A stretch of 64,000 bases of DNA from Methylobacterium sp. C25 (GTDB lineage Bacteria; Pseudomonadota; Alphaproteobacteria; Rhizobiales; Beijerinckiaceae), in NCBI RefSeq assembly GCF_021352225.1, contig NZ_JAAUVI010000003.1, positions 496,001 to 560,000 of the forward strand, written 5' to 3'. The notes under the pieces were generated by a model, which saw only the letters and a program-made list of their open reading frames with translations, was not told where the DNA came from and did no database searches. This document shows, one piece after another, positions 46,099 to 61,653 of this stretch (positions are counted from its first letter, which is position 1; every line of letters begins with the position of its first letter). Both the position numbers and the translations under genes were made by a program.

Positions 46099-46142
46099 GC
46101 TCCGGAGCGAGATCAGTTCAGCTCCGGAGCGAGATCAGTTCA
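46099..46142. repeat. exact tandem duplication, 2 x 22 bp
   Basis: 46099-46120 is repeated perfectly at 46121-46142, each copy containing the palindrome GCTCCGGAGC. The second copy contains the stop codon of the GntR gene (46135-46137), so the duplication extends the 3' untranslated side and leaves the protein intact. Confidence 0.95.
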
Positions 46143-46818
46143 GGTGGTGACCGTAGCGCTCGACATGGACGGCGAGGCCGAGACCATGGTCACGCACGAG
46201 GCGTTCGGCGAGGTCTGCGTTGCGCGCCTCCAGCGCCTCGATGATGTGGACATGCTCGGCGATGGAGGTCGAGGCGCGGTCGCCCTCGCGCAGGGCAATG
46301 TTGCGCACGCCCTTCACGTGCATCAGCAGGTTGCTGCACAGGTCCTGGATCACCTCGCAATGGCCGAGGGAGATGATCTTCTGGTGGAAGCGGATGTTGG
46401 CCTCCGAATACTCGGCCAGATGGTCTGCCGGCTTCCCCTCGAAAAACTCGGGAAACATCTTGCGCATGCACTGGAGGTCTTCGTCCGAGGCGCGCGTGCA
46501 GGCGAGCCGCGCCGCCATGCTCTCCAGGGCCGCCCAGGCCTGGATCATCCCGACGATCTCGCGCTTTGTCTTCTTGACGACGAAGACCCCGCGCCGCGGC
46601 TCGTTGCGCACGAAGCCTTCCTGCTCCAGCACGGTCAGCGCTTCGCGGATCGGTGTCCGGCTAACGCCAAGCGTCTGTGACAGGCCACGCTCGTCCAGAC
46701 GGATATCGCCGCTCTGGCCGTAGATATCCATATTGGTGATGGCCGACTTCAACGCTTCGTAGGCCAGAGTCCGCAGACTCGTCGCCGGAACGAGCGGCTT
46801 GATCGTGAAGTTCTGCAT
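46135..46818 (-). CDS. GntR/FCD-family regulator, inferred controller of the oxalate locus
   Basis: 227-residue DNA-binding protein: winged helix with SQTLGVSRTPIREALTVLEQ (about residues 45-64) and an FCD ligand domain with the metal-type histidines kept (NIRFHQKI, EHVHII, RDHGLGL). It is divergent from the CoA-transferase gene at 47178, and a 17-bp inverted repeat lies between them. The same repeat recurs at five other promoters of the locus, so this protein is the best candidate for the regulon regulator. The ATG at 46818 (MQNFTIKPL) is chosen; the longer frame has no typical start. A diverged paralogue lies at 3777-4472. Confidence 0.88.
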   Translation of the reverse strand: MQNFTIKPLVPATSLRTLAYEALKSAITNMDIYGQSGDIRLDERGLSQTLGVSRTPIREALTVLEQEGFVRNEPRRGVFVVKKTKREIVGMIQAWAALESMAARLACTRASDEDLQCMRKMFPEFFEGKPADHLAEYSEANIRFHQKIISLGHCEVIQDLCSNLLMHVKGVRNIALREGDRASTSIAEHVHIIEALEARNADLAERLVRDHGLGLAVHVERYGHHLN

Positions 46819-47002
46819 GGCGTCAGTATCGGTCTGGTACTGGCTACGGATCGGTGATGTCGACGTCGTTTCCCGGCGCGGACCTTGGCGATTCGGCTTG
46901 GGAAACACAAGACGCGCGTCAAGCATAGCCGGGTATAGCCTCGTTCTGGCTCGACGCCGCGGATTGGCGCAACGCCGGGTTTCAGCCGGCAAAATTGACC
47001 GC

Positions 47003-47019
47003 TGGTATTTGGTATGCCA
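47003..47019. promoter_or_regulatory. operator (a) of the oxalate regulon: gntR / frc1
   Basis: TGGTAT-TTGGT-ATGCCA. It fits the consensus TGGYAT-N5-ATRCCW shared by six sites. It lies in the 359-bp region between the divergent gntR gene and the first frc gene, which otherwise shows no ORF of note. Confidence 0.75.
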
Positions 47020-47177
47020 ATATTGCGCCGTCGTCAAAAGCGAATCCATCGCCCCGCGCCGCGCCTGTCGAGACGCAGGCCGTTAGGGCTCCCCGCTTCC
47101 GGGCGGCGCATGGCTCGGCACGGGATCGCTGAAATCCCGGCCGGAGAATCGTAGAAGTATCTCCCTGGGAGGAGAGG

Positions 47178-48458
47178 ATGACGAGCACGCCACTCCACGG
47201 AGTGAGGATCTTGGACTTTACGCACGTCCAGTCCGGTCCGACCTGTACGCAGCTTCTCGCCTGGTTCGGCGCCGACGTCATCAAGATCGAGCGGCCGGGC
47301 ACGGGCGACGCCACGCGCCAGCAGCTTCAGGATCTTCCGGGCGTGGACAGCCTCTATTTCACGATGCTGAACCACAACAAGCGCTCGATCACGATCGACG
47401 CGAAGAACGCTCACGGCAAAGAGGTGCTTTGGCGGCTCATCCGGGAATGCGATGTGCTCGTCGAGAACTTCGCCCCCGGCGCGCTCGACCGCATGGGCTT
47501 CACCTGGGAGAAGCTTCAGCAAGCCAATCCAGGCCTGATCCTCGCCTCGGTGAAGGGTTTTGGACCGGGCCGCTACCAGGATTGCAAGGTCTACGAGAAC
47601 GTCGCGCAATGCGCGGGCGGCGCCGCCTCGACCACCGGTTGGCGCGACGGCGTGCCGATGGTGACCGGTGCCCAGATCGGCGATTCTGGCACCGGTCTGC
47701 ATTTGGCACTCGGCATCGTCACAGCGCTCTACCACCGCACCCAGACTGGCCAGGGCCAGCGCGTGGACTGCTCCATGCAGGACGGCGTGCTCAATCTCTG
47801 CCGTGTGAAGCTGCGCGACCAGCAGCGCCTCGAACAGGGGCCGCTCAAGGAATACAGCCAGTTCGGCGAGGGCGTGGAGTTCGGCGAGTCCGTACCGCGT
47901 GCCGGCAACGATTCAGGCGGGGGCCAGCCTGGCCGCATCCTGAAGTGCAAGGGCTGGGAACAGGATCCGAACGCCTACATCTACTTCATCACGCAAGGAG
48001 CGGTGTGGGACCCGATCTGCGACATCATCGGTGAGCCCGGCTGGAAGACCGATCCGGACTACATGACGCCGAAAGCGCGCCTGCCGCACTTGAACGAGAT
48101 CTTCACGCGCATCGAGGCGTGGACGATGAAGCACGACAAGTTCGAGGCGATGGACATCCTCAACGAGTACGACATCCCTTGCGGGCCAATCCTCTCGATG
48201 AAGGAGATTGCCGAGGATGAGGCTTTGCGTGCCAGCGGCACGGTCGTCGAGGTCGAGCATCCGGCCCGAGGCAGCTATCTGACCGTCGGCAATCCGATCA
48301 AGCTCTCGGCGAACCCGGTGGAGATCAAGCGCTCCCCCCTACTCGGCGAGCATACCGACGAGATCCTGCGCGAGGTGTTGGGCTGCTCAGCCGTCGAGGT
48401 CGACCAGATCCTCGGATCGGGCGCAACGGGACCGGTTCAGCGAGCTGCAGCCGAATAA
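47178..48458 (+). CDS. frc: formyl-CoA:oxalate CoA-transferase family protein, copy 1
   Basis: 426-residue class III (CaiB/BaiF) CoA-transferase, expected to move CoA from formyl-CoA or another donor to oxalate. The catalytic Asp169 (AQIGDSGTG) occupies the same position as in Oxalobacter Frc. The family's tetra-glycine active-site loop (GGGGQ in copy 2) is DSGGGQ here, so one glycine is replaced by serine and donor preference may differ. A strong ribosome site (GGGAGGAG) precedes ATG 47178. Operator (a) lies upstream and operator (b) follows the gene. Confidence 0.9.
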
Positions 48459-48508
48459 TAGCGCAACCAGTCAACGAACTGGCTGCACAATATTGACAAT
48501 CCCAGCGC

Positions 48509-48525
48509 TGGCATGCCATATACCA
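48509..48525. promoter_or_regulatory. operator (b) of the oxalate regulon: 61-aa ORF
   Basis: TGGCAT-GCCAT-ATACCA, with an overlapping perfect palindrome TGGCATGCCA. It lies 51 bp after the frc1 stop and 74 bp before the small ORF at 48599. Confidence 0.72.
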
Positions 48526-48598
48526 GAATGCCGCATCGGCGCCGACGGTGAGACCGTCGCGCAGCTCGGGCTACTTGGGCAACCATCAGGGGACGGCG

Positions 48599-48784
48599 AT
48601 GATCGACTTCGCTCTCGACGAACCGCTGGCCCTACTGGCCGAGGCCTTCGGGCATGAGCCGGATAGCGTGAGCTTGCTCGCTCCAAACGGAGAAATCGCC
48701 GCACCGATGATGGTGCCGAACGCGGCCGTCATCCCCGTCGCGGCGCTCGGCGAAATCGGCGTCTCCGCCACCCACGCAGACTAG
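48599..48784 (+). CDS. small protein of unknown function, 61 aa
   Basis: ATG 48599 with AGGGGA 6 nt upstream. The product is soluble, acidic and rich in Ala, Val and Pro (MIDFALDEPLALLAEAFGH at the start, VSLLAPNGEIAAPMMVP in the middle). There is no signal peptide and no recognised family. It is directly downstream of operator (b), so it is likely induced with the oxalate genes. The frame is open further upstream but lacks a better start. Confidence 0.6.
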   Translation: MIDFALDEPLALLAEAFGHEPDSVSLLAPNGEIAAPMMVPNAAVIPVAALGEIGVSATHAD

Positions 48785-48818
48785 CTGCCCGGCAGCCGCC
48801 ATAGGCGGCTGGTGTGCT

Positions 48819-48980
48819 TTAGGCGGCGAGCTGCGCGTAGCGGCCAGCGCCCTGCAGATTGCCGTTGCGGCCGTCCTGGCTGGTCGCGGCGTCGGCGGTC
48901 AGCTTGTCGGCGACCTTGACCACCAGCAGCGCCTGGAGAGCAAACAGAAGAACGAGAGCGAAGAGTGCGGTGCCGAGCAT
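48819..48980 (-). CDS. single-helix membrane peptide, 53 aa
   Basis: ATG 48980 with AGAGAGG 5 nt upstream. The product begins MLGTALFALVLLFALQALLV, a membrane helix, then a polar tail (KLTADAATSQDGRNG and LQGAGRYAQLAA). No family recognised. It converges with the 61-aa ORF, and its upstream region carries a degenerate operator-like element (49049-49065, only the right half well kept). Confidence 0.6.
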   Translation of the reverse strand: MLGTALFALVLLFALQALLVVKVADKLTADAATSQDGRNGNLQGAGRYAQLAA

Positions 48981-49162
48981 GGTAGCCTCTCTGGGGACAA
49001 TGTTGCGTTGCGACAGAGATAGACCCAGCGTTTTTGGATATGAAGTACAAAATACCAGATACCGTTATGCGCATAACGCATGACGTAGCACTTTTATGCA
49101 GATTTTAATCCTTTTTTGAGCCAGCCTGGCTGAACCATGCATTGCAGTGCAACATAACCCCG

Positions 49163-50935
49163 TCACGAGGCGTCGCCACCCCACAGGCCAAGTGTCGAGG
49201 TTTCGGAACAGCGCAGGGTCTCTTCGATCGGCGGCACATCCGGCCAACCCGGATCGAGCCCGGCGGCCAACAGGGCGGCGCGCATTTCATCGTCCTCGCA
49301 GACCCGGTCGAGGATGACCCGATCGAGCCCGATCAGCCGCTTGTGCTCAAAACGGGCGAAGACGCGTCCCGTCCGCTGCTCCGCAAAACGCACGCTCGAT
49401 AGGCGCGCAAGGCATTCACGCAGAAAGCCGGCGTTGCGCTCCGGCGCGAGGTCGGCGCCATCGTAAACCTCATCGGGCGAACGGGCGTGAATGTTGATCC
49501 GCCGGAATCGATCGACGTCGAGCAGTCGGCGGGGATCGAGAATGGTGATGGCACCATTGCTGCCGAAGGCGATCGTGCGCGGTGTCTCGCCCAGGGCCAC
49601 GGTGTTGTCGAGGAACTCGAACACCACCGCCTTGTCGGTTCGCAGTGCCCAGAGGAAGAATAGGCGCGGCATGCCGGCAAAGGCCTCAACGTTGTGCGCG
49701 AGCAGGTCCTCGACCGCCTTGTAGCGGCCGAACTGCTCACCACGCTTCCAGGCGCGCTCCACGGTCGCCTCGGGCGGCGTCACCATGAATTGCAGGTAGA
49801 TGCGGTGGCCGAAGCGGGTCAGGAGCTGGCTGGTCCCGTCGCCGCGGGAATCGGCGGAGAAACTGTCGAAGCGGAAGCGATCGATCAGCAGGTGTGAGAT
49901 GCGCCCCTCGGCCGCCTTCCGCGTCATGTAACGGTCGAGCTTGGAATCGACGACCTCAACCTCGTGGCCTGTCAGCGGGCCGGCATAACGCCGCGCCGGA
50001 CCGAGACTGTCATAGTCGAGCAGAAACTTGCGCCAGACGTCGGGTGTGATCACGGCAAAGTCGGACCAGTCGGTGCCGTTCCGCTCGGCGAGGCCACGCT
50101 GGTACGGACGAATCGTGCTCTTGCCGGAGGCCGAGGCCCCCTTGACGTTCATCACCACGGGATGGCTCTGGGCACCGACACGACGGTAGCCCTCGCGGGC
50201 GACGATCTCAGCGATCCACGGGTCGATCGTCTCGCCGATCCGCCGGCTGCCATGGGCGTTCGAGACCAGAATGGCGGCAAGCTTGGCCAGCAACGCCCTG
50301 TCGCGGATCAGAAAGCCCTGACGGCCTATCAGCCCGGCGGCGACGCAGCGCAACGCCTCGCGAACCTCCTGCTCGAGGCTGCCCACCGGGCCCGCCGGCT
50401 CGTTGAGCCGGCGGCAGGCGCGCGTCTGCCAATCCTCGACAGGTTTCGATGCTTCTCGTCGTTGAAATGGCCACAGGCCCCGGCTGCGGGCCGGGACGGC
50501 CACAGGCTCGTCGAGGAGGACGGCGATCTCGCGCTCGATGAGAGCAGCCGCTTCGGCGCGAACGTTGTGCAAGGTCTCGGCGACCTGCGGCATGCGGTCC
50601 CCGATCCCGTCACGCAGGATCGTCGTCACGATGCGCCGGAAATTGACGCCGAGATCCGCGTACACTGCGCCGAGCGGCACCGAGAGATCGGCCATCACGC
50701 GGATCAGCACCGCATGGACGACTAGGCGCTCGGGGCGGAACAGGGCCAGTTGGGTGGCCTGGAGTCCACTGAAGTCGCTGAGCTCCTGGATCTCCGCGTA
50801 GGAGTTCTCGATGTTCTCGGCGCGGAAGATCGTGGCGAGCGGCCGGACATGGCGCGGCAGTCCGGAGACGATGCCCGGGTTCCAAGCGTGGAACCCTGCA
50901 TCCTCGTCCTCAAAGTCAGGGTCGGGCGCCGGCAT
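49163..50935 (-). CDS. P-loop NTPase / kinase-like protein of unknown function
   Basis: 590-residue soluble protein. A Walker A motif GASASGKST lies at residues 266-274, after the strand VVMNVK. Further on, FAVITPDVWRKFLLDY, HLLIDRFRFDSF and LQFMVTPPEATVERAWKRGEQFGRYKAV look like the nucleotide and lid parts of a zeta-toxin/chloramphenicol-phosphotransferase-like kinase. The first 250 residues are helical with no recognised domain. It is last in a coupled cassette with an ABM-like and a CBS protein (30-bp gap) behind operator (d), which ties it to oxalate-responsive expression. Function unknown. Confidence 0.75.
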   Translation of the reverse strand: MPAPDPDFEDEDAGFHAWNPGIVSGLPRHVRPLATIFRAENIENSYAEIQELSDFSGLQATQLALFRPERLVVHAVLIRVMADLSVPLGAVYADLGVNFRRIVTTILRDGIGDRMPQVAETLHNVRAEAAALIEREIAVLLDEPVAVPARSRGLWPFQRREASKPVEDWQTRACRRLNEPAGPVGSLEQEVREALRCVAAGLIGRQGFLIRDRALLAKLAAILVSNAHGSRRIGETIDPWIAEIVAREGYRRVGAQSHPVVMNVKGASASGKSTIRPYQRGLAERNGTDWSDFAVITPDVWRKFLLDYDSLGPARRYAGPLTGHEVEVVDSKLDRYMTRKAAEGRISHLLIDRFRFDSFSADSRGDGTSQLLTRFGHRIYLQFMVTPPEATVERAWKRGEQFGRYKAVEDLLAHNVEAFAGMPRLFFLWALRTDKAVVFEFLDNTVALGETPRTIAFGSNGAITILDPRRLLDVDRFRRINIHARSPDEVYDGADLAPERNAGFLRECLARLSSVRFAEQRTGRVFARFEHKRLIGLDRVILDRVCEDDEMRAALLAAGLDPGWPDVPPIEETLRCSETSTLGLWGGDAS

Positions 50936-50965
50936 CGTCGTACCAGCTCCCAGGCCCCGACCGGA

Positions 50966-51292
50966 TCAGGCCGCCGAAGCGTCGTCGATCGGCTCGAAGC
51001 GAGTCTGGTAGGCGTCGCCCCAGACGTCGTCGGCCTTCTTGTGCCAGTCCTTGTCGAAGAACCGCTTGGCCAGGAACTCGCTGTTCCAGATGCAGACCGC
51101 GGTGATGCGGTTGTCCAGCACTCGCACGTGCCGGCTCTCCAGGCCGGCGGTGACACCCGCACGGGGCAGCATGTCCTTGCTCGAAAATCCGTGTTCGTTC
51201 TCGGCCGGGAACACCACCGGGCATTCCACGACGGTCAGATACTTCATCGGGCGCTCTTCCGGCTCTCTCGATTGATCGGTTGGGTCGGTCAT
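50966..51292 (-). CDS. small alpha/beta-barrel (ABM-like) protein, 108 aa
   Basis: The core MKYLTVVECPVVFPAENEHG, VRVLDNRITAVCIWNSEFL and KRFFDKDWHKKADDVWG has the beta-alpha-beta pattern of small dimeric ferredoxin-like barrels (antibiotic-monooxygenase or stress-responsive type), a tentative assignment. The ATG at 51292 overlaps the stop of the CBS gene (ATGA), so this start is favoured over the internal Met at 51247. Middle gene of the cassette. Confidence 0.65.
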   Translation of the reverse strand: MTDPTDQSREPEERPMKYLTVVECPVVFPAENEHGFSSKDMLPRAGVTAGLESRHVRVLDNRITAVCIWNSEFLAKRFFDKDWHKKADDVWGDAYQTRFEPIDDASAA

Positions 51293-51738
51293 GCACTTAG
51301 GTCCGCGCAGGCGCAGTCCCAGATACTAAGGACACTGCTAACCCGAAATCCATCCATCAGTGCGATATGATCGACCTTTCGGTCACAGAAGGCCTGCAGG
51401 CGGTCCCGGGGGGAGGCGGTCACGTCGATCGCCGGGAAATCGTGCTCGGTGATGAGCCAAACGCAGTGGCCGTAGACGTCCGGTCCGCGGGCGGAGAGCG
51501 CTCGGAATATGTCACGCTCCGTCAGCAGCCCGACGACGCTTGCCTCCGGCTCATGGCCATCGACTACGAGCAGTGCGCCCACACCCGACCGTGCGAGCAG
51601 CCGGGCCGCATCCCCCACGGAGCTGTCCATGTGAATACGCGGTACGCCGACAGCGTCGCGCGCTTGGCCCGTCCGTCGGTCCACGGCGCTTCTCCCAATG
51701 GCCGCCATCATAACGTGGGGACGATCCATGCCTTTCAT
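51289..51738 (-). CDS. CBS-domain protein
   Basis: About 149 residues. A CBS-type module is visible (IHMDSSVGDAARLLARSGVGALLVVDG, then SVVGLLTERDIFRALSARG), with a second, weaker repeat after residue 95 (FPAIDVTASPRDRL and VDHIALMDG). Such modules bind adenosine nucleotides and sense energy charge. The start is ATG 51738 or 51729; longer starts would lie inside operator (d). First gene of the three-gene cassette, stop overlapping the next start. Confidence 0.8.
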   Translation of the reverse strand: MKGMDRPHVMMAAIGRSAVDRRTGQARDAVGVPRIHMDSSVGDAARLLARSGVGALLVVDGHEPEASVVGLLTERDIFRALSARGPDVYGHCVWLITEHDFPAIDVTASPRDRLQAFCDRKVDHIALMDGFRVSSVLSIWDCACADLSA

Positions 51739-51740
51739 CC

Positions 51741-51757
51741 TGGTATACAACATACCT
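51741..51757. promoter_or_regulatory. operator (d) of the oxalate regulon: CBS cassette
   Basis: TGGTAT-ACAAC-ATACCT, immediately upstream (2 bp) of the CBS gene's ATG 51738, where a bound repressor would block transcription or initiation. The remaining 343 bp to the oxlT1 start on the other side show no ORF I can support; the same site could also act on oxlT1. Confidence 0.72.
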
Positions 51758-52100
51758 GTTGTCAATTCTGGATTTTGAATTATGGTGCCAGAGTCGGTCA
51801 ACGCAAGCGGAAGAATACAGCCGCCGGCGATGATCGAAGCATTCATGTGTTTCGGTGTGGTCCGAAAGATTGATCGGGCCTAACCCTCGTTCTTCGTCAT
51901 GCTGGCGAAGACGATCATGGAAGACGCAGGAGTGGTTAGAGAAGTTCAGCTTGAAACCGGCTTTCTGCCCGAGGCGATTGCGCAGAGGTGAAGCCGTCCA
52001 ACACGATTACAGGCCTTCGACGATTAACGATCGAAGCCAAAGAACACAAAAATATCGGCCCAGTAACGCCAGACATCCCAAAGGCCTACGGAGAAAAGCA

Positions 52101-53384
52101 ATGGCTACCCCTTCTGTAACAGCAAGCTCGCCGCCGAGCAGCCGATGGCTGCAACTGATCTTCGGCGTCATCTGCATGTGCATGATTGCGAACATGCAGT
52201 ACGGCTGGACTTTCTTCGTGAACCCGATCCAGGAGCGCCACGGCTGGGACCGCGCTGCGATCCAGGTCGCCTTCACGATGTTCGTTGTCACCGAGACCTG
52301 GCTTGTCCCGATCGAGGGCTGGTTCGTCGATAAATACGGCCCGCGTATCGTCGCACTGGTCGGCGGCCTGCTCTGCGCCATCGGCTGGGTGATGAACTCC
52401 TACGCAGACTCGCTGACGATGCTCTACATCGCCGCTGCTGTCGGTGGTACGGGCGCCGGCGCCGTCTACGGCACCTGCGTCGGCAACTCGCTCAAGTGGT
52501 TCCCGGATCGTCGTGGTCTCGCCGCCGGCATCACTGCGATGGGCTTCGGTGCAGGCTCGGCTCTGACCGTCGTGCCGATCCAGGCCATGATCAGGAACTA
52601 CGGCTACGAGTCGGCCTTCTTCTACTTCGGCATCGGCCAGGGCGTGATCGTCATGCTGCTGGCGCTGTTCCTCGTCGCCCCGAAGAAGGGTCAGGTTCCG
52701 GAAGTTGCCAAGGTCAGCCAGAGCAAGCGCGACTTCACGCCTGGCGAGATGGTGCGTACGCCGATTTTCTGGATCATGTACGCGATGTTCGTGATGATGG
52801 CGGCTGGCGGCCTGATGGCTACCGCGCAGCTTGGCCCGATCGCCAAGGACTTCCACATCATCGACACGCCGGTGAGCCTGCTCGGCATCACCCTGCCGGC
52901 GCTGACCTTCGCGGCGACGATCGACCGCGTGCTCAACGGTGTCACGCGTCCGTTCTTCGGCTGGGTCTCCGACCATATCGGTCGCGAGAACACGATGTTC
53001 CTCTCCTTCGCCATCGAAGGTGTCGGCATCTACCTGCTGAGCGTGTTCGGCAACGACCCGTTCATGTTCGTGATCCTGACCGGTCTCGTGTTCTTCGCCT
53101 GGGGTGAGATCTACTCGCTGTTCCCGGCGACCTGCGGTGATACCTTCGGTTCGAAGTATGCCGCGACGAATGCGGGCCTGCTCTACACGGCCAAGGGAAC
53201 GGCGGCTCTGATCGTGCCCTTCACCAGCGTCCTGACGACGATGACGGGCTCGTGGCACGCAGTGTTCCTTGCCGCCGCCGGATTGAACATCCTCGCTGCG
53301 ATCATGGCACTCTTCGTGCTCAAGCCGATGCGGGCCTCCTACACCAAGGAGCCGGCTGCGGTGGGTGCAGTCCAGACCGCGTAA
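52101..53384 (+). CDS. oxlT: oxalate:formate antiporter OxlT, copy 1
   Basis: 427-residue, 12-helix MFS exchanger that imports oxalate and exports formate. The two charged residues needed in Oxalobacter OxlT are present: Arg283 (VTRPFFGW, equivalent to Arg272) and Lys365 (YTAKGTAAL, equivalent to Lys355). Other family segments include GCICMxx-type NMQYGWTFFVNPIQ and GTCVGNSLKWFPDRRGLAAG. ATG 52101 sits after GGAGAAAAGCA. Very similar to the next gene, implying tandem duplication. Confidence 0.93.
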   Translation: MATPSVTASSPPSSRWLQLIFGVICMCMIANMQYGWTFFVNPIQERHGWDRAAIQVAFTMFVVTETWLVPIEGWFVDKYGPRIVALVGGLLCAIGWVMNSYADSLTMLYIAAAVGGTGAGAVYGTCVGNSLKWFPDRRGLAAGITAMGFGAGSALTVVPIQAMIRNYGYESAFFYFGIGQGVIVMLLALFLVAPKKGQVPEVAKVSQSKRDFTPGEMVRTPIFWIMYAMFVMMAAGGLMATAQLGPIAKDFHIIDTPVSLLGITLPALTFAATIDRVLNGVTRPFFGWVSDHIGRENTMFLSFAIEGVGIYLLSVFGNDPFMFVILTGLVFFAWGEIYSLFPATCGDTFGSKYAATNAGLLYTAKGTAALIVPFTSVLTTMTGSWHAVFLAAAGLNILAAIMALFVLKPMRASYTKEPAAVGAVQTA

Positions 53385-53400
53385 GCGGCTCTCGAGAACC

Positions 53401-53425
53401 GGCGCCGGTCCATCAGACCGGCGCC
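53401..53425. terminator. hairpin after oxlT copy 1
   Basis: GGCGCCGGTC pairs perfectly with GACCGGCGCC over a CATCA loop, 17 bp after the stop. There is no T-run, so terminator strength is uncertain. Confidence 0.55.
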
Positions 53426-53599
53426 CGATATCCGACACAGACGCGCGCTGCGGCAGAGACGCCCGGCGCGCGTATTCGTTCGAGCGGTCGGCTCACGCTT
53501 GCTGATTCGTCGATCAGCCGATGAGAGCTTGCGGGGAGCCCTGCAAAAAATCATCAATCAGCAATGCAGGATATTACGTCCGAACAACAAACTTAATCC

Positions 53600-53616
53600 T
53601 GGTATATTGCATACCT
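53600..53616. promoter_or_regulatory. operator (e) of the oxalate regulon: oxlT copy 2
   Basis: TGGTAT-ATTGC-ATACCT, 63 bp before the ATG of the second antiporter. It matches site (d) in both half-sites, including the terminal T. Confidence 0.72.
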
Positions 53617-53679
53617 AGCAATCCCGTGCATGATGCGCCGCCAAGGGCTCGAAAAGACCCTCAACGGAAGGAATCCGGG

Positions 53680-55008
53680 ATGGAACGTCAGGACGGGCTG
53701 ACCTCAGCCGCTACTCCCGCGGCCACGCCGCACGATGCACCCTCGGCCAAGTGGTGGCAGCTCGCCTTCGGCGTGCTCTGCATGGCGATGATCGCCAACC
53801 TCCAGTACGGCTGGACACTCTTCGTCGATCCGATCGACCAGAAATTTCACTGGGGCCGCGCGGCCATCCAGTTCGCCTTTACGCTCTTCGTCGCCACCGA
53901 GACCTGGCTCGTTCCAGTCGAGACCTGGTTCGTCGACCGCTACGGCCCGCGCGTCGTCGTGTTCTTCGGCGGTATCATGATCGGGCTCGCCTGGTTCCTG
54001 AACGCGCACGCCGATTCGCTGGCCCTGCTGTATCTCGCTGCCGTGATCGGCGGCATCGGCGCCGGCTCGGTTTACGGCACCTGCGTCGGTAACGCCCTGA
54101 AGTGGTTCCCCCACCGCCGCGGCCTCGCCGCCGGCGCCACGGCGGCCGGCTTCGGCGCGGGCGCTGCCATCACCGTCGTGCCGATCGCCAAGATGATCGC
54201 CACCAGCGGCTACCAGGATGCCTTCCTGTATTTCGGCCTCGGCCAGGGCATCGTCGTAGTCTTTCTCTCGCTGCTGCTGCGCAAGCCGTCGGTCGCCGTG
54301 CCGGTCCAGCGTAAGAGCCTGCGCCTGCCCCAGACCAAGGTCGACCGCACTCCGAAGGAAGCCGTGCGCACACCCGTGTTCTGGGTGATGTACGCCATGT
54401 TCGTCATGGTCGCTTCGGGTGGCCTGATGGCCGCCGCGCAGATCGCCCCGATCGCCCACGACTACAAGGTCGCGGATGTGCCGGTGAGCCTGTTCGGGCT
54501 GCAGATGGCGGCTCTGACCTTCGCGATCTCGCTTGACCGCATCTTCGACGGCTTCGGTCGCCCGTTCTTCGGCTGGGTCTCGGACAATATCGGCCGTGAG
54601 AACACGATGTTCATCGCTTTCTCGACGGCGGCGATCGCCATCATCGCGATGCTGAACTTCGGCACCAACCCCTACGTCTTCGTCTTCGCGACGGCGGTGT
54701 ATTTCGGCGTGTTCGGCGAGATCTACTCGCTGTTCCCGGCAACCTGCGGCGATACGTTCGGCTCGAAGTTCGCAGCCAGCAACGCCGGCCTGCTCTACAC
54801 GGCAAAGGGTACCGCGGCCTTCCTCGTGCCCTTCGCCAGCATGCTCTCGGCGGCCTATGGCTGGTCGGCGGTCTTCGCGCTGATCATCGTCCTCAACGCC
54901 ATCGCGGCCTCGCTCGCGATCTTCGTCCTGAAGCCGCTGCGTCGCCGCTACCTCACCGAGGGTGAGCAGGCGAGCGACGGCAAGGTCAGCTCCCTGACCC
55001 TGGCCTGA
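53680..55008 (+). CDS. oxlT: oxalate:formate antiporter OxlT, copy 2
   Basis: 442-residue paralogue of the preceding antiporter with a longer Thr/Ala/Pro-rich N-terminus. The OxlT determinants are kept: Arg294 (FGRPFFGW) and Lys376 (YTAKGTAAF). FPATCGDTFGSKF and GTCVGNALKWFPHRRGLAAG match copy 1. The ATG at 53680 has a GGAAGG ribosome site. It is followed by a strong intrinsic terminator, so oxc has its own promoter and operator. Confidence 0.93.
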   Translation: MERQDGLTSAATPAATPHDAPSAKWWQLAFGVLCMAMIANLQYGWTLFVDPIDQKFHWGRAAIQFAFTLFVATETWLVPVETWFVDRYGPRVVVFFGGIMIGLAWFLNAHADSLALLYLAAVIGGIGAGSVYGTCVGNALKWFPHRRGLAAGATAAGFGAGAAITVVPIAKMIATSGYQDAFLYFGLGQGIVVVFLSLLLRKPSVAVPVQRKSLRLPQTKVDRTPKEAVRTPVFWVMYAMFVMVASGGLMAAAQIAPIAHDYKVADVPVSLFGLQMAALTFAISLDRIFDGFGRPFFGWVSDNIGRENTMFIAFSTAAIAIIAMLNFGTNPYVFVFATAVYFGVFGEIYSLFPATCGDTFGSKFAASNAGLLYTAKGTAAFLVPFASMLSAAYGWSAVFALIIVLNAIAASLAIFVLKPLRRRYLTEGEQASDGKVSSLTLA

Positions 55009-55030
55009 CCACGCCACCCACATGTTATGA

Positions 55031-55062
55031 CGCCGGCCGGATCAAATCCGGCCGGCGTTTTC
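55031..55062 (+). terminator. intrinsic terminator after oxlT copy 2
   Basis: A 12-bp perfect stem (CGCCGGCCGGAT with ATCCGGCCGGCG) and a CAA loop are followed by TTTTC. It separates the antiporter from oxc. Confidence 0.92.
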
Positions 55063-55075
55063 ATTGACCCCTATT

Positions 55076-55092
55076 TGGTATCTGGTATACCA
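55076..55092. promoter_or_regulatory. operator (c) of the oxalate regulon: oxc
   Basis: TGGTAT-CTGGT-ATACCA, overlapping the perfect palindrome TCTGGTATACCAGA. It lies 91 bp before the oxc ATG, just past the terminator of the upstream gene. Confidence 0.8.
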
Positions 55093-55183
55093 GATGCTCG
55101 GTTGAAGCGCCGCCTACGCCGATTCGGTGTCCACCGGTCCGGAGAGCGCGGTACGCCGATAAAATCACTCGGGAGGAATAGAA

Positions 55184-56923
55184 ATGTCCGCAGTGGCACA
55201 GCTCGTTGATACGTCCGCCGACACCGAAGCCGAACAGACCGATGGCTTCCACCTCGTCATCGATGCTCTGAAGCTCAACGGCATCGAGACCATCTACGGC
55301 GTGCCCGGCATTCCGATTACCGATCTCGGGCGCATGTGCCAGGCCGAAGGCATCCGTGTCGTGTCGTTCCGCCACGAGCAGAATGCCGGCAACGCCGCCG
55401 CCATCGCCGGCTTCCTCACCAAGAAGCCGGGCATCTGCCTCACCGTCTCGGCGCCTGGCTTCCTGAACGGCCTGACCGCCCTCGCCAACGCCACCACCAA
55501 CTGCTTCCCGATGATCCTGATCTCGGGCTCCTCCGAGCGTGAGATCGTCGACCTGCAGCAGGGCGACTACGAGGAGATGGACCAACTCGCCATCGCCAAG
55601 CCTCTCTGCAAGGCCGCCTTCCGCGTGCTGCACGCCTGCGACATCGGCATCGGCGTCGCCCGCGCCATCCGCGCTGCCGTGTCCGGCCGTCCCGGTGGCG
55701 TCTATCTCGACCTGCCCGCCAAGCTGTTCTCCCAGGTGATGGACGCCGAAGCCGGCGCCAAGTCGCTGGTGAAGGTGATCGATGCGGCCCCGGCCCAGAT
55801 CCCGGCTCCGAGCGCCATTGCCCGCGCCCTCGAGGAACTCAAGAACGCCAAGCGTCCGCTGATCGTGCTCGGCAAGGGCGCCGCTTACGCCCAGGCCGAC
55901 GACCTCGTGCGCGACCTCGTCGAGAAGAGCGGCATCCCCTACGTGCCGATGAGCATGGCAAAGGGCCTGCTGCCGGACACCCACCCGCTGTCGGCCGGTG
56001 CCGCCCGCTCGACCGCGCTCAAGGATTCCGACGTCGTCCTGCTCGTCGGCGCCCGACTGAACTGGCTGCTCTCGCACGGCAAGGGCAAGACCTGGGGTGA
56101 GCCCGGCTCCAAGCGCTTCATCCAGATCGACATCGAACCGCGCGAGATGGATTCGAATGTCGAGATCGTCGCTCCGGTGGTTGGCGACATCGGCTCCTGC
56201 GTCGCTGCCCTGCTCGATGGCATGAACAAGGGCTGGAAGGCCCCGCCGGCCGACTGGATCGAGACGCTGCGCACGAAGCGCGAGGCGAACGTCGCCAAGA
56301 TGGCGCCGAAGCTCATGAAGAACACCTCGCCGATGGACTTCCATTCGGCTCTCGGCGCCCTGCGCACCGTGATCAAGGAGCGTCCGGACGCCATCCTCGT
56401 CAACGAAGGCGCCAACACCCTCGATCTCGCCCGCGGCGTCATCGACATGTACCAGCCGCGCAAGCGCTTGGACGTCGGTACCTGGGGCGTGATGGGCATT
56501 GGCATGGGCTTCGCCGTCGCCGCCGCCATCGAGACCGGCAAGCCGGTTCTCGCCGTCGAGGGTGACTCGGCCTTCGGCTTCTCGGGCATGGAGGTCGAAA
56601 CGATCTGCCGGTACAACCTGCCGGTCTGCATCGTGATCTTCAACAACAACGGCATCTATCGCGGCACCGACACCGACCCGACCGGTCGCGATCCGGGCAC
56701 CACGGTGTTTGTGCCGGGCTCGCGCTACGACAAGATGATGGAGGCCTTCGGCGGCGTCGGCGTGAACGTCACGACCCCGGACGAGTTGAAGCGCGCAGTC
56801 GACGCCGCGATGGATTCGGGCAAGCCGACCCTCATCAACGCCGAGATCGACCCGGCAGCCGGCAGCGAGAGCGGCAATATCGGCAGCCTCAACCCGCAGA
56901 GCGTGGTCAAGAAGAAGAAGTAA
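55184..56923 (+). CDS. oxc: oxalyl-CoA decarboxylase
   Basis: ThDP-dependent enzyme converting oxalyl-CoA to formyl-CoA and CO2 in the cytoplasm. It has 579 residues, close to the Oxalobacter enzyme. Glu65 ([10 protein letters not shown]) activates ThDP, and the ThDP/Mg motif [14 protein letters not shown] runs to FNNNGIYRG (about residues 461-491). The C-terminus [15 protein letters not shown] is the CoA-closing segment of the family. GGGAGG precedes ATG 55184, with operator (c) and an intrinsic terminator upstream and another terminator downstream. Confidence 0.97.
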
Positions 56924-56950
56924 GGCGGCGCATCAACGACGCCTGAACCG

Positions 56951-56980
56951 GGGCCGCAGCGTCACGCGCTGCGGCCCTTT
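56951..56980 (+). terminator. intrinsic terminator after oxc
   Basis: GGGCCGCAGCG pairs with CGCTGCGGCCC over a 5-nt loop, followed by TTTCC. It lies 28 bp after the oxc stop and 31 bp before the next gene. Confidence 0.85.
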
Positions 56981-57010
56981 CCATTTCACTCACCAGCGCA
57001 AGGGACGGCC

Positions 57011-57733
57011 ATGAGCTCCACTGCGACGGACACCCCTCCCCTCGATCCTCATCTCGCCGGACGCCTCAGCTTTCTACACCGGCTACCGACCGCTGAGCCC
57101 ATCCCTCCGGGACGTCACGAGCTCGGGCTTTTCACCGAGCGAGACGCGGTCCTCGTCGTTCCCGAGGGCATCGACGCACGTAAGCCCGTGCCGCTCGTCG
57201 TTCTGTTTCACGGTGGCGGTGGCAGCGCGGAAAAGATCCTTCCGATGCTGCAGGGGCAAGCCGAGGCGCGCGGCTTCCTGTTGTTGGCCCCGCAATCGAT
57301 GCATCCGACATGGGATCTGGTCATCGCCGGCAACGGGCCGGACCGCGCGCGCCTCGACCTCACACTGGCCGTGGTCGCCCGCCACTTCCTGCTCGACCCT
57401 GCGCGCTTCGCCTTCGCGGGCCATTCGGACGGTGGCAGCTATGCCATGTCGATCGGCATCACCAATGGCGACATCGTCAGCCACGTGATCGTGTCGTCGG
57501 CCGGCTTCATGTCCGTTCAGGCCCAAGCTGGGTCGCCGCGCATCTTCATCTCGCACGGAACCCAGGACGAGCAGATCCCGATCGACCGGAGCGGCCGGAC
57601 GCATTCCCGCGTGCTGCGCGAGGCGGGCTACGACGTCACCTACGTCGAATATGACGGTCCGCACGCCTACAATCCGGGCGTGGTGCGCCAGGCCGTCGAC
57701 TTCTTCCTGCAGGATCCGCCGACGGCGGGCTGA
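57011..57733 (+). CDS. alpha/beta-hydrolase, phospholipase/carboxylesterase-like
   Basis: 240-residue hydrolase with no signal peptide. HGGGGS forms the oxyanion loop, nucleophile Ser139 lies in GHSDGGS, and the acid and His are in SHGTQDEQIPI and YDGPHAYN. It could be an esterase or a thioesterase; in this position a CoA-thioester clean-up role is conceivable but not shown. It follows oxc behind a terminator and converges with the HPP-CBS gene (4-bp gap). Confidence 0.85.
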   Translation: MSSTATDTPPLDPHLAGRLSFLHRLPTAEPIPPGRHELGLFTERDAVLVVPEGIDARKPVPLVVLFHGGGGSAEKILPMLQGQAEARGFLLLAPQSMHPTWDLVIAGNGPDRARLDLTLAVVARHFLLDPARFAFAGHSDGGSYAMSIGITNGDIVSHVIVSSAGFMSVQAQAGSPRIFISHGTQDEQIPIDRSGRTHSRVLREAGYDVTYVEYDGPHAYNPGVVRQAVDFFLQDPPTAG

Positions 57734-57737
57734 TCGC

Positions 57738-58919
57738 TCAGCTGGCGGCGGAGAACAGCGTCGCGTCGTTGTCGCCGTGGCTCGCCATATCGGCTAGCAT
57801 CGCCCCGACGAGATCCGTCTGGGCGACGACGCCAATCAGGCGGCCATCCGGCGCGACGACGGGCGCGTGATGGAAGCCCGCCTGGGTCATCTCCAGAACT
57901 GCCTCGCTGGCGACGGTCTCAGGACGCAGTCTGGCGAAATGTCTCGTCATCACGTCTGCCACCGAGCCGTGAGGCGCGCGGCCTCGCTCGAGGGTAAGTT
58001 GGACACGGCGATCGAAGGCCAGGCGAGGGCCGCGCTTGTCCCAAACCGCCTTGTCGATCAGGTCGGTCTGCGTGACGACGCCGAGCACCCTCGCCTTCTC
58101 GTCGGTCACTGGCAGCATGGTGACGCGGTAGCGCCGTAAGGTATCGAGTGCCTCGCGGAGCTTCGTCTCGGGAGCGATGGCGCGCACTTCCAGAGACATC
58201 ACGGCGGCGCAGGTCGTCTGCCCCGAGCGGCGAAGGGACGCGTGGATTTGCGCGCGCCGCAAGATCGCCCGCAGATCTGCACGGCTGATATCGAGGACCT
58301 CGTCGACCTCGCTCAGGGCGGCGTCGACGTCAGCCGCCGTCAGGCCTCCCGCTGAAGCGGGCCCGGCGCCGACGTCGTTCGCCGGCTGGCTCGGAGCCAC
58401 GTGCGGGTATGAGCGTCCGGTCAGGTTGTTGAAGACCAGTGCGGAGAGCAGCAGCAGAACCGAGTTCACGCCGACGGGCCAGAGCACGAACCCATATCCG
58501 AGGTCGTGGACCACCGGGCCTCCGAGCACGGCCGTGAGCGCCACGGCCCCGCTCGGCGGGTGAAGGCAGCCGAGCAGCATCATCGATGCGATCGCGACGG
58601 AGCCCGCAACGGCACACGCGATCACCGGATCGGCGATGCTCGCCGCGGCAGTGACGCCGACGATCGCCGACACGAGATTGCCGCCCAGAATCGACCAAGG
58701 TTGAGCGAGCGGGCTCGAGGGTACTGCGAAGAGAAGGACGGCGGAGGCGCCCATCGGGGCGATCAGGGTCGGCAAGGCCGCTCCCGAGCCGATAGCGAAA
58801 TGCGAGATCAGGCCGGTCAGAAACAGCCCGATCATGGCCCCGCAAGCGGAGCGGACACGCTCACGCGGACTGATGGAGGGCAGTTCCGGCACGAAACGGC
58901 GCAGGAAGGAGCTCTGCAT
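57738..58919 (-). CDS. HPP-family membrane protein fused to two CBS domains
   Basis: 393 residues. The N-terminal HPP region has four helices with LIAPMGASAVLLFAVPSSPLAQPW and GCLHPPSGAVALTAVLGG, the His-Pro-Pro signature. A linker leads to two CBS modules (VMSLEVRAIAPETKLREAL and VMTRHFARLRPETVASEAV), each with a TDL ending. HPP proteins are linked to nitrite or small-anion transport in chloroplasts and cyanobacteria; here the ligand is unknown and the CBS pair probably senses adenine nucleotides. The ATG at 58919 gives a compact N-terminus. Confidence 0.87.
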   Translation of the reverse strand: MQSSFLRRFVPELPSISPRERVRSACGAMIGLFLTGLISHFAIGSGAALPTLIAPMGASAVLLFAVPSSPLAQPWSILGGNLVSAIVGVTAAASIADPVIACAVAGSVAIASMMLLGCLHPPSGAVALTAVLGGPVVHDLGYGFVLWPVGVNSVLLLLSALVFNNLTGRSYPHVAPSQPANDVGAGPASAGGLTAADVDAALSEVDEVLDISRADLRAILRRAQIHASLRRSGQTTCAAVMSLEVRAIAPETKLREALDTLRRYRVTMLPVTDEKARVLGVVTQTDLIDKAVWDKRGPRLAFDRRVQLTLERGRAPHGSVADVMTRHFARLRPETVASEAVLEMTQAGFHHAPVVAPDGRLIGVVAQTDLVGAMLADMASHGDNDATLFSAAS

Positions 58920-59130
58920 CGGCAGGACCTCGGTGTGGCGGTGACGATCCTGAAACGGAACCGCGCAGCTCGTCATGCGTGCGCCGGCGGAGCGGAAAGC
59001 GCTAAGGTTGCATCGTTGGGTAAAGAAAAGCCGGGCCGACGAATCGGCCCGGAGTTGAAAAGACGCGCCTTGGGCTCTCCCCACCGGCGCACCCTTCCTG
59101 GGAGAGGAAGATCCAGGATGGTCCGAACTG

Positions 59131-59153
59131 AGGGCGGCGCGCTTCGCCGCCCT
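59131..59153 (-). terminator. hairpin after frc copy 2
   Basis: AGGGCGGCG pairs with CGCCGCCCT over a 5-nt loop, 24 bp beyond the frc2 stop. There is only a weak T content after it on the minus strand. The rest of the 258-bp gap to the HPP gene shows nothing I can name. Confidence 0.5.
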
Positions 59154-59177
59154 CTCGCCGGGCTTCAGACCGTCGCG

Positions 59178-60428
59178 TCAGACGGCCTTCGCGTCATGCA
59201 GTTCTGCGATCTGCTGCTGGGTGTAGCCCAGATCCTTCAGAACCTCGTTGGTGTGCTCGCCGAGAAGCGGCGAAGCCTTGATGTTGACCTTCAGGTCCGA
59301 GAACTTGATCGGGCTTCCGACGGTCAGGTACGAGCCGAGCTTCGGGTGCGACACCTCGGCGATGGTGCCGCTCTCGCGCAGCGACTTGTCCGCAGCGATT
59401 TCCTTCATCGACAGGACCGGCGAGCACGGGATGTCGAACTTGCGCAGGATGTCGACGGCCTCGAACTTGGTCTTGTCGGCCAGCCACTCTTCGATCGTCT
59501 TGAAGATGTCGAAGATCTTGTCCTGGCGAGCGCGGGCGGTGTTGTAGGCCGGATCGTCGATCCACTCCTCGCGGCCGAGAGCCTTGCAGATCGGCGCCCA
59601 GGCATGGCCCTGGATCGTGAAGTAGATGTAGGCGTTCGGGTCGGTCTCCCAGCCCTTGCACTTCAGCACCCAGCCCGGCTGACCGCCGCCGCCCGCGTTA
59701 CCGCCGCGCGGCACCACGTCCGTGAACTCGCCGTGCGGGTACTGCGGGTACTCTTCGAGGTAACCGACAGCGTCGAGGCGCTGCTGGTCGCGCAGCTTCA
59801 CGCGGCAGAGGTTGATCACGGAGTCCTGCATCGACACGGCGACCTTCTGGCCCTTGCCGGTCTTGTCCTTGTGGCGGAGCGCCGTGAGGATGCCGATGGC
59901 GAGGTGCATACCGGTGTTCGAGTCACCGAGAGCGGCAGCCGACACGGTGGGCGGGCCATCCCAGAAACCGGTGGTCGAAGCGGCACCGCCGGCGCACTGG
60001 GCGACGTTCTCGTAGACCTTCAGGTCCTCGTAGTGGTGGCCATCCGAGAAGCCCTTCACCGAGGCGAGGATCATGCCCGGGTTCAGTTCCTGAATGCGTG
60101 CCCAGGAGAAGCCCATGCGGTCGAGGGCGCCGGGGCCGAAATTCTCGACCATGACGTCCGACTCGCGGATCAGCTTCTCGAGCACTTCCTTGCCCTTGGG
60201 GGTCTTGGTGTCGAGCGTGAGCGAACGCTTGTTCGAGTTCAGCATCGTGAAGTAGAGCGCGTCGGCATCTTCCACGTGACGCAGCTGGCTGCGGGTGACG
60301 TCGCCGGCGCCGGGGCGCTCGACCTTGATCACGTCCGCGCCGAACCAGGCGAGGAGCTGCGTGCAGGCGGGACCGGCCTGGACGTGCGTGAAGTCGATGA
60401 TCTTGATGCCTTCCAACGGCTGGGTCAT
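59178..60428 (-). CDS. frc: formyl-CoA:oxalate CoA-transferase, copy 2
   Basis: 416-residue class III CoA-transferase that makes oxalyl-CoA from oxalate and formyl-CoA. Catalytic Asp169 (AALGDSNTG) and the intact tetra-glycine loop ([10 protein letters not shown]) match Oxalobacter Frc, as do [15 protein letters not shown] and [10 protein letters not shown]. This is the canonical copy. It lies 84 bp downstream of the PAS gene on the same strand with no operator of its own, so it is probably read from the promoter next to operator (g). Confidence 0.95.
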
Positions 60429-60512
60429 TCTCGTCTTCTCCCTTACTTCGATCTCTTTGCCGGTCTCGGTGAACTGTTGCAGAAACTGCCGAGAAAGGCG
60501 GCTTCTACGGAT

Positions 60513-60953
60513 CTAGACTGAAGCTGGCTTCAGCTCTGCCTCGAGGTCGGAGACCCGGCGCCGCAGGCGCCGCTCCTCCTCCCAGCGTGCGGTCTCGTCG
60601 CGGATGATCGCGGCGATGCCCGTGACGTCCCCATCGTCACCGCGGAGCATTCCGACGGTGAAAGCGATCGAGAGTTGATGCCCGTCCTTGTGCAGGGCGG
60701 GGACCTTCAGCACGTCGGCGCCATACTTCGTGGTGCCGGTGCTCATGCTCTTGTGGTAGCCGTCCCAATGGCGACGGCGGTGGCGATCTGGCGTGATCAG
60801 GTCGAGGCTCTGACCGAGCGCTTCGGCTTCGGAAAAGCCGAAGATCCGCTCCGCGGCCGGATTCCAGACGACGATCAAACCTTCTCGATCGGAAATGACG
60901 ACCGCATCGCCGATCGCATCGACCAGTCCCGAAACGTCGAAATTCGACGGCAT
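60513..60953 (-). CDS. PAS-domain protein, 146 aa
   Basis: A single PAS domain (DAVVISDREGLIVVWNPAAERIFGFSEAEALGQ, given as the motifs VVWNPAAERIFGF and SLDLITPDRHRRRHWDGY) is followed by a coiled-coil-like tail (EERRLRRRVSDLEAEL). There is no kinase, cyclase or DNA-binding output domain, so it may act by protein contact. The HRRRHWDGYHKSM block resembles sensor PAS domains of the FixL/oxygen-redox type. It heads a probable operon with frc copy 2, with operator (g) upstream. Confidence 0.85.
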   Translation of the reverse strand: MPSNFDVSGLVDAIGDAVVISDREGLIVVWNPAAERIFGFSEAEALGQSLDLITPDRHRRRHWDGYHKSMSTGTTKYGADVLKVPALHKDGHQLSIAFTVGMLRGDDGDVTGIAAIIRDETARWEEERRLRRRVSDLEAELKPASV

Positions 60954-61063
60954 GTCAGACCGAGTGCCGCGCGCGCCGATGGGCTGGGCAAGGATCGGTC
61001 ATGGCGTTTGTCCTCCCGTTTGCCGAGACGAGGGCTCTCCCCAACGTCCGGTGACTCGGTGAT

Positions 61064-61080
61064 TGGCATTTGGTATACCA
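61064..61080. promoter_or_regulatory. operator (g) of the oxalate regulon: PAS-frc2 and osmC
   Basis: TGGCAT-TTGGT-ATACCA, overlapping the perfect palindrome TGGTATACCA. It lies in the 256-bp region between the divergent PAS and OsmC genes, so it may control both directions. Confidence 0.78.
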
Positions 61081-61209
61081 GACCCAGAAGAGCGGTCAAG
61101 GCCGCCATTCGAGCGGGCTAGACCAACGCTGGGGATACCGGCGGCGCGACCGATCGTTGTCCCACCGACGATCGCACGCTGGACCGGGATCGGGAGGAGA
61201 TGAGCCGGG

Positions 61210-61653
61210 ATGGCGTCGAAGCCGAGTATCATCATCACCCAGGTCGAGGGCTTCAAGTTCCTGATCGATTTCGGCGAGGCCTTTCCGGCTCTCGTCTCGG
61301 ACGAGCCCGAGCCGATTGGCCGGGAAGCCGGTCCATCACCGGAGCAACTGATGATCGCTGGTGTGAGCAATTGCCTCTGCGCCAGCCTCGCCTTCGCGCT
61401 GGGCAAGTTCCGGCAAGAAAGTGGCGGCGTCTCGGCCAAGGCCTCGGCCCAGGTCGCCCGAAACGCGGAGCAGCGCCTGCGCATCGTCGGGATCGACGTG
61501 GAGATCAGCCTCGGTGCCGAGGCCGCGCAGATGCCGCGGATCGAGCAGGTGCTCGCTCAATTCGAGCGATTCTGCACCGTCTCGGAGAGCGTGAAGATGG
61601 GCATCCCCGTTGCGGTCTCGGTCACGGATTCTCGGGGCGAACGCCTGAAATAG
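61210..61653 (+). CDS. OsmC-family protein
   Basis: 147-residue OsmC/Ohr-fold protein, probably a thiol peroxidase or a relative. The reactive cysteines are in VSNCLCASLAFAL and FERFCTVSESVKMG; the extra cysteine two residues after the first is unusual. It has the generic OsmC pattern GPSPEQLMIAGVSNC rather than the Ohr pattern at 8217. GGGAGGAGATGAGCCGGG precedes ATG 61210. It shares the operator (g) region and is 16 bp upstream of the SnoaL-like gene. Confidence 0.82.
   Translation: MASKPSIIITQVEGFKFLIDFGEAFPALVSDEPEPIGREAGPSPEQLMIAGVSNCLCASLAFALGKFRQESGGVSAKASAQVARNAEQRLRIVGIDVEISLGAEAAQMPRIEQVLAQFERFCTVSESVKMGIPVAVSVTDSRGERLK

Follow-up and report, generated by a model that had tools for sequence, protein, structure and literature searches.

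How Methylobacterium sp. C25 controls its genes for oxalate, a common plant acid eaten by leaf and soil bacteria, is the question raised by the 64,000-nucleotide stretch of its genome analyzed here (contig NZ_JAAUVI010000003.1, positions 496,001 to 560,000, forward strand; referred to as the window). We found no report of a switch for this pathway: none of the literature matches listed, covered through titles and abstract openings and mostly outside the full text of subscription journals, reported a GntR regulator or an operator for oxalate genes. A first-pass annotation had proposed that a 17-bp inverted repeat, TGGYAT-N5-ATRCCW, defines an oxalate regulon in the window, with the GntR protein encoded at 46135-46818 as likely regulator. 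From the sequence comparisons below, the conserved oxalate operator is real and this protein very probably its regulator, and the form of the operator needs correcting to three half-sites, TGGYAT-N-TGGYAT.RCCA. We consider it likely that the GntR protein uses the six sites as its operators and acts as an oxalate-responsive repressor of the oxalate genes and of gntR itself.

Operator sites in the window and the genome

The pattern TGGYATNNNNNATRCCW matched the 64-kb window at 47003, 48509, 51741, 53600, 55076 and 61064 only (10 strand-matches at six places), exactly where the annotation had put its six sites and excluded others, and dinucleotide shuffles of the window gave a mean of 0.02 matches. 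In the whole genome (5,187,454 bases, 34 contigs), exact matches were confined to the same six places, with one match for the backwards control; when up to three mismatches were allowed, the rest of the genome gave 61 strand-matches versus 63 for the backwards control, no excess. The oxalate pathway genes beside the operators, named in the annotation as two frc, oxc and oxlT, passed curated cut-offs (TIGR03253 twice, TIGR03254 and TIGR04259; Table 1). The sites had been placed between genes and ahead of gene starts. Four are intergenic as assigned, whereas those at 51741 and 53600 fall within the longest possible open reading frames (ORFs) of cbs and oxlT2 and are intergenic only with nearer start codons for these genes; gene starts are fronted in general, with the exception that the site at 48509 precedes a small ORF at 48600, not a named gene, and this ORF is here added to the gene set of the operator regulon. 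Distances from operator to assigned start codon were 11 to 184 bp (11 bp for cbs), and 343 bp for oxlT1.

Conservation in Methylobacterium and in the order

Forty gntR neighbourhoods from genomes of the genus were taken for comparison. The genes gntR, frc1, kin, nip, cbs, two oxlT and oxc stood in the window's order in 15 of the 40, ten were rearranged with oxc adjoining or near gntR, and the remainder were shortened or cut by contig ends. Upstream regions were searched for motifs without seeding by the operator, the starting words being drawn at two-base intervals from the upstreams of the window itself, which formed the first row. The operator was the top motif in 7 of 15 upstream sets (gntR, cbs, oxlT1, oxlT2, oxc, pas and osmC), which correspond to five separate promoter regions in the window, cbs/oxlT1 and pas/osmC being divergent pairs, and it ranked second for frc1, a gene whose upstream region in many relatives is also that of gntR. 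Different motifs came out of the remaining seven sets (sml, frc2, est, kin, hpp, ntf and nip), that of sml (GGTATTTTGTACTTCATAT) having one GGTAT in common with the operator. A scoring matrix started from the six sites of the window and then trained on these upstreams, with an information content biased towards A, the first half-site defined below, found sites scoring above 12 in 39/41 gntR, 27/27 cbs, 15/17 oxlT2, 22/26 oxc and 18/18 pas upstreams; the two gntR misses were L097 and L101, and the 450-bp upstream cut may account for the four oxc misses, where gntR-oxc regions are long. The operator therefore recurs in the same promoters of related Methylobacterium genomes, a comparison that the annotation had suggested.

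Matches to gntR at E ≤ 1e-30 were present in 93 of 111 genus genomes. The mean number of TGGYATNNNNNATRCCW strand-matches was 8.6 in these 93 genomes versus 1.17 in the 18 GntR-negative ones (control pattern, 0.56 and 0.39; rank test, p = 2e-10, where the relatedness of genus and order genomes makes rank and Fisher tests overstate independence and the p-values too small). Across 397 genomes of the order, a stricter pattern, TGGYATNTGGYATRCCA, occurred in 81 and its backwards control in 0, GntR relatives (E ≤ 1e-50) occurred in 104, and oxc in 81. A GntR relative was found in 79/81 motif genomes versus 25/316 others, and oxc in 66/81 versus 15/316; with the genus excluded, these values were 71/73 versus 25/315 and 58/73 versus 15/315. 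The agreement between motif and GntR spans many families of the order. Among the matches listed, at least 45 of 125 non-genus sites lay within 15 kb of oxc or gntR, with about 1 expected on a rough estimate; 45 is a minimum, as some second gntR copies were not among the anchors. In the class outside the order, the motif was found in 5/285 genomes, with one control match, and two of the six loci read adjoin oxlT or gntR. This co-occurrence of motif, GntR and oxc, together with the recurrence in the same promoters, supports the proposed oxalate regulon with the GntR protein at 46135-46818 as its likely regulator.

A third half-site in fixed register

Written in one orientation, all six window sites read [T/A]GG[T/C]AT-N-T[G/T]G[T/C]AT-[A/G]CC[A/T], an asymmetric layout absent from the annotation. 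Half-sites A and B (both TGGYAT) form a direct repeat 7 bp apart, and C (RCCA) is inverted relative to B, so that B+C is a 10-bp palindrome, TGGYATRCCA, and the annotated inverted repeat corresponds to A+C. This outer pair is indeed present in all six sites, and the palindromic core is exact in the four for which it had been claimed (47003, 48509, 55076 and 61064); it is the reading as a simple inverted repeat that needs changing.

Because the overlap of A, B and C could be a fluke in six sites, the layout was tested in other genomes. Sites were chosen by the inner palindrome alone, with A unused, giving 32 palindromes in 26 loci from order-level gntR upstreams. TGGY stood at -7 in 26 of the 32 (24 on one side, 2 on both, 6 on neither), and any other TGGY offset occurred at most three times. 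Within the genus, TGGY stood at -7 of the inner palindrome in 31/34 gntR, 22/22 oxc and 17/17 pas cases, eight pas palindromes having an additional TGGY at -19. The exact palindrome was present in 26/40 order-level gntR upstreams; in several order-level relatives A is TGGTGT or TGGTCT with B and C unchanged, and two genus loci (L097 and L101) and one from the order (L254) keep the inner palindrome without A. Taken together, the -7 register and the variation of A indicate that A is a real element in fixed register and that B+C is the more constant core.

Extra half-sites 7-12 nt from the palindrome centre have been described for GntR operators in 13 FadR-subfamily groups, with their function open (PMC4494728), and A lies at a comparable distance, about 9-10 nt. 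In that study the extra boxes are weaker, with about half the score, whereas in the genus A equals B and C approximately in conservation, as judged from sites selected by a matrix containing A, and stands in a fixed 7-bp register. The third half-site thus appears unusually strong and fixed, which makes the role of extra GntR half-sites, the question of PMC4494728, directly testable.

A TTGAC word was found 8-20 bp from the operator end at 94/142 genus and 12/31 order-level sites, starting most commonly 8 bp ahead of A (54 genus sites), and window operators 1, 2, 3 and 5 have one nearby. The word resembles a -35 box. When the region was scanned for promoters by a simple method, three candidates were obtained versus 1.7 expected, one of which spans operator 1.

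The GntR protein

The product of 46135-46818 matches PF00392 (41.8 bits, cut-off 27) and PF07729/FCD (84.1 bits, cut-off 24.3), in agreement with its annotation as an FCD-type regulator. Its AlphaFold model (mean pLDDT 85.9) has a first helix beginning at residue 15 and six C-terminal helices (residues 85-109, 112-121, 134-151, 155-175, 181-197 and 201-222). Six rather than seven FCD helices separate VanR from FadR. Foldseek matches in the PDB included PmiR, Atu1419/VanR and AlkR among the best, and across 49 aligned proteins the pocket residues are N141 in 48/49, H145 in 49/49, H189 in 47/49 and H211 in 48/49, a predicted conserved metal-type site. By its domains, six helices, pocket and 10-bp GT-N2-AC palindrome, the protein is a VanR-group FCD protein. 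The curated models phnR_burk (TIGR03338; 114.8 bits, cut-off 271.5) and NCBIfam NanR (64.4 bits, cut-off 260) were both rejected as its identity.

Atu1419 of Agrobacterium fabrum is a VanR-group FCD repressor that binds the 10-bp palindrome ATGTATACAT and has a zinc site of Asn137, His141, His192 and His214 (PMC7797058). The two proteins share the FCD domain, the fold and the Asn-His-His-His site, and the palindrome here, TGGTATACCA, has the same GT-N2-AC form. They differ in that Atu1419 is a tetramer that regulates hydroxycinnamate genes and responds to methylene-tetrahydrofolate, and the available part of its description mentions no extra half-site 7 bp off (PMC7797058). NanR of E. coli, also a GntR/FCD protein with half-sites in direct repeat, binds GGTATA repeats with up to three dimers side by side (PMC8012715). 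As described in the part of that paper available, its repeat operator has no inverted half-site, and its 32-residue N-terminal extension gives cooperativity, whereas the first helix here begins at residue 15. A NanR-type operator of direct GGTATA repeats only was rejected, as an inverted half-site is present as well in each of the six window operators.

Proposed mechanism and alternatives

We propose that without oxalate the GntR protein would silence the oxalate genes together with gntR. The likeness to Atu1419 in metal site and 10-bp palindrome suggests that a VanR dimer sits on B+C and that the effector is a small carboxylate bound at the metal; a further dimer, or a tetramer through another of its arms, would probably contact A. 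With the operator close behind TTGAC, bound protein would block RNA polymerase, and oxalate or a close metabolite may bind the Asn141-His145-His189-His211 site and free the protein, oxalate being the first guess for the effector.

Several observations weigh against this repressor reading. The inner core is degraded at 51741 (one base off, TTGTATACCA) and at 53600 (two bases off, TTGCATACCT). Presence of the motif alone discriminates weakly, with at least one match in 92/93 GntR-positive but also in 11/18 GntR-negative genus genomes, and genus sites off the cluster adjoin unrelated genes (histone-deacetylase family, NMT1-like and formaldehyde-activating family). The exact motif is missing from 25 of the 104 order genomes with a GntR relative, among 40 order-level gntR upstreams nine fall short of a score of 15 (the other 31 score at least 17), and 80 of the 125 non-genus sites among the matches listed lie beyond 15 kb of oxc or gntR. 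Some sites front genes for Hsp33 and a universal stress protein, with no clear oxalate link, and a -10 partner of TTGAC, sought in the pooled alignment, gave no clear consensus. A further GntR copy encoded in the genome has a DNA-reading helix very much like that of the first, most order-level relatives fall in a sister clade, and members of the window protein's clade outside the genus (L182 and relatives, and L217) have weak or no matches at their own upstreams.

The model of the annotation was that a single GntR dimer binds the outer TGGYAT-N5-ATRCCW, the inner core being a by-product. It accommodates the intact outer pair at all six sites, including the two with degraded cores, and the sites of L091, L092 and L103 (TGGCAT-T-TGGAAT.GCCA), in which the middle half-site is weakened. 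We regard it as unlikely, as Atu1419, a VanR protein of solved structure, recognizes a 10-bp palindrome that has the inner spacing (PMC7797058), the three loci without A retain the inner palindrome, and across the order it is A that varies. Nor do we expect the protein to be mainly an oxalate-dependent activator: oxalate genes need induction and the sites say nothing direct about sign, but the cbs operator stands so near its assigned start codon, TTGAC words come shortly ahead of many operators, and Atu1419 and NanR are described as repressors (PMC7797058, PMC8012715), so that activation seems rather doubtful. Chance, or a dispersed repeat family with no regulatory role, is hardly credible given the shuffle expectation of 0.02 per window, the lack of any other exact copy in the genome and the empty backwards control in 397 order genomes, and is contradicted also by the genus motif search and the co-occurrence with GntR and oxc.

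A different regulator at the sites, for example a GntR paralogue, is improbable, and is given more weight than it would otherwise have because the second GntR/FCD copy in the window (3777-4472, minus strand) keeps the recognition region SRTPVREALT; this copy might in principle recognize the same DNA. Of the 93 GntR-positive genus genomes, 20 have two or three members at E ≤ 1e-30, and outside the genus the best sites lie ahead of sister-clade genes. Against this, 73/93 have a single match, and single-match genomes G007, G014 and G022 have six cluster sites; the second copy, 49% identical, stops about 15 residues short and carries Trp, Cys, Tyr and Arg in place of the four pocket residues, which are likewise lost in its homologue in G018; and GntR-negative genomes are poor in the motif. 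The protein at 46135-46818 remains the preferred regulator.

Paralogues and evolution

In a tree of 61 rows, in which the L217 protein was entered twice at different lengths and long-branch rows are unsure, the window protein groups with oxlT-linked copies of Ancylobacter and relatives with support of 89/77, below the customary threshold. Set apart from this clade is a sister group (37 rows, support 96/90) in which many rows adjoin oxc. Eight named loci of Ancylobacter and relatives hold both copies, and in 8/8 a perfect site lies ahead of the second gene, the one linked to oxc. It is possible on these sequence relationships that one paralogue took over the oxalate regulon from its sister. A bolder reading joins such a takeover in Methylobacterium, with the operator grammar unchanged, to an operator that is an obligate directional three-half-site element for more than one VanR-type dimer, in one register order-wide; we put this forward tentatively, judging it somewhat more apt to be wrong than right. 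Behind the second copy, ORF 4628-5869 (minus strand) is flavohaemoprotein-like by eye.

Genes behind the operator elsewhere in the order

Loci were available for only part of the order-level sites, and neighbouring ORFs were chosen mechanically by length or base composition; of 20 such ORFs scanned, 13 had a Pfam match and 7 did not. Sites of other families precede pas-frc, fdhE-selA, pntAB, a NuoE/F-type protein and ADP-forming CoA ligases, several of which fit oxalate and formate use. The CoA-ligase genes behind the operator (L195, L200, L213, L215, L275, L297 and L298, some beside oxc or TctC) are candidates for an oxalate:CoA ligase. In L288 and L303, from another family of the order, the operator lies between pas-frc and a divergent gene for a sigma-70-type (ECF-like) factor. 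The transhydrogenase is reported to be strongly upregulated on oxalate in M. extorquens AM1 (PMC13344952, citing other work), and pntAB is preceded by the operator in three loci of one other family (L285, L286 and L290). Its membership in the Methylobacterium regulon was not supported: in the pntA neighbourhoods of nine genus genomes, the window's included, the best site scored 12.3 and none exceeded 13, one of the other eight being a 46% match that may not be pntA.

A candidate regulator with a precise operator predicts the regulon in many genomes and ties unknown small proteins to oxalate use, and the operator set gives candidate oxalate-responsive promoters.

Features of the cluster and minor sites

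Coordinates are collected in Table 1. In many genomes of the genus the interval from frc1 to cbs holds the 590-aa and 108-aa genes, ORFs with L[AV][ED]AFG follow frc1 in 13/21 loci (the window among them; longest ORFs, judged by eye), and counterparts of oxlT2 in relatives match oxlT1 at about 60%. The hydrolase/esterase-like protein scored below cut-off with both models (PHA-depolymerase-type, 47.2 versus 150; esterase, 27.1 versus 191), and no operator of its own was found, its upstream set in the genus motif search having given a different motif.

Table 1. Operators and genes of the oxalate region, in window coordinates
Feature	Position	Strand	Location or product	Sequence or evidence
operator 1	47003..47019	+	gntR/frc1 intergenic	TGGTAT-T-TGGTAT.GCCA; TTGACC 46995-47000, two bases ahead
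operator 2	48509..48525	-	after frc1, ahead of small ORF	TGGTAT-A-TGGCAT.GCCA
operator 3	51741..51757	-	cbs/oxlT1	AGGTAT-G-TTGTAT.ACCA; TTGACA 51760-51765 (-)
operator 4	53600..53616	+	ahead of oxlT2	TGGTAT-A-TTGCAT.ACCT
operator 5	55076..55092	+	ahead of oxc	TGGTAT-C-TGGTAT.ACCA; TTGACC 55064-55069
operator 6	61064..61080	+	pas/osmC	TGGCAT-T-TGGTAT.ACCA
partial site	49052..49064	-	upstream of 53-aa ORF	CGGTAT-C-TGGTAT (CGGTATCTGGTAT); direct repeat without inverted arm
gntR	46135..46818	-	227 aa, FCD/VanR-group regulator, candidate repressor	PF00392, PF07729
frc1	47178..48458	+	formyl-CoA:oxalate CoA-transferase	TIGR03253, 703.3 bits (cut-off 504.2)
small ORF	48600..48784	+	behind operator 2; 61 aa from ATG 48600	longer GTG start 48548
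53-aa ORF	48819..48980	-	hydrophobic N-terminus	no match in Pfam scan
590-aa protein	49163..50935	-	in cluster of many relatives	no match in Pfam scan
108-aa protein	50966..51292	-	in cluster of many relatives	no match in Pfam scan
cbs	51289..51729	-	CBS-domain protein	PF00571
oxlT1	52101..53384	+	oxalate/formate MFS antiporter	TIGR04259, 701.7 bits (cut-off 335)
oxlT2	53681..55008	+	MFS transporter, second antiporter-like copy	PF07690
oxc	55184..56923	+	oxalyl-CoA decarboxylase	TIGR03254, 1019.1 bits (cut-off 739.4)
hydrolase/esterase-like	57011..57733	+	downstream of oxc; adjoins oxc in many relatives	
HPP-family	57738..58895	-	membrane protein with CBS domains	PF04982, PF00571
frc2	59178..60428	-	formyl-CoA:oxalate CoA-transferase, behind pas	TIGR03253, 713.8 bits (cut-off 504.2)
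pas	60513..60953	-	PAS-domain protein	PF00989
osmC	61210..61653	+	OsmC/Ohr-like	TIGR03561, 29.2 bits, below cut-off 88.85
SnoaL-like	61670..62032	+	behind osmC	PF12680, 24.3 bits, below cut-off 27

The partial repeat CGGTATCTGGTAT, also new relative to the annotation, was dropped as a further operator, its matrix score being just 8.8. The element TGGTATTTTGTACTTCA (49030-49070, upstream of the 53-aa ORF) is exact in 13/19 upstreams, the window counted, and may belong to some other factor. Two further genome sites, likewise missing from the annotation, lie one mismatch from the stricter pattern and outside the window cluster, on contig C1, and are leads only: L007:4033-4056 precedes a paralogue of the HPP-family protein with CBS domains, and L008:3641-3657 lies 236 bp ahead of the gene for an HD-domain protein and is perfect in the close relative L257.

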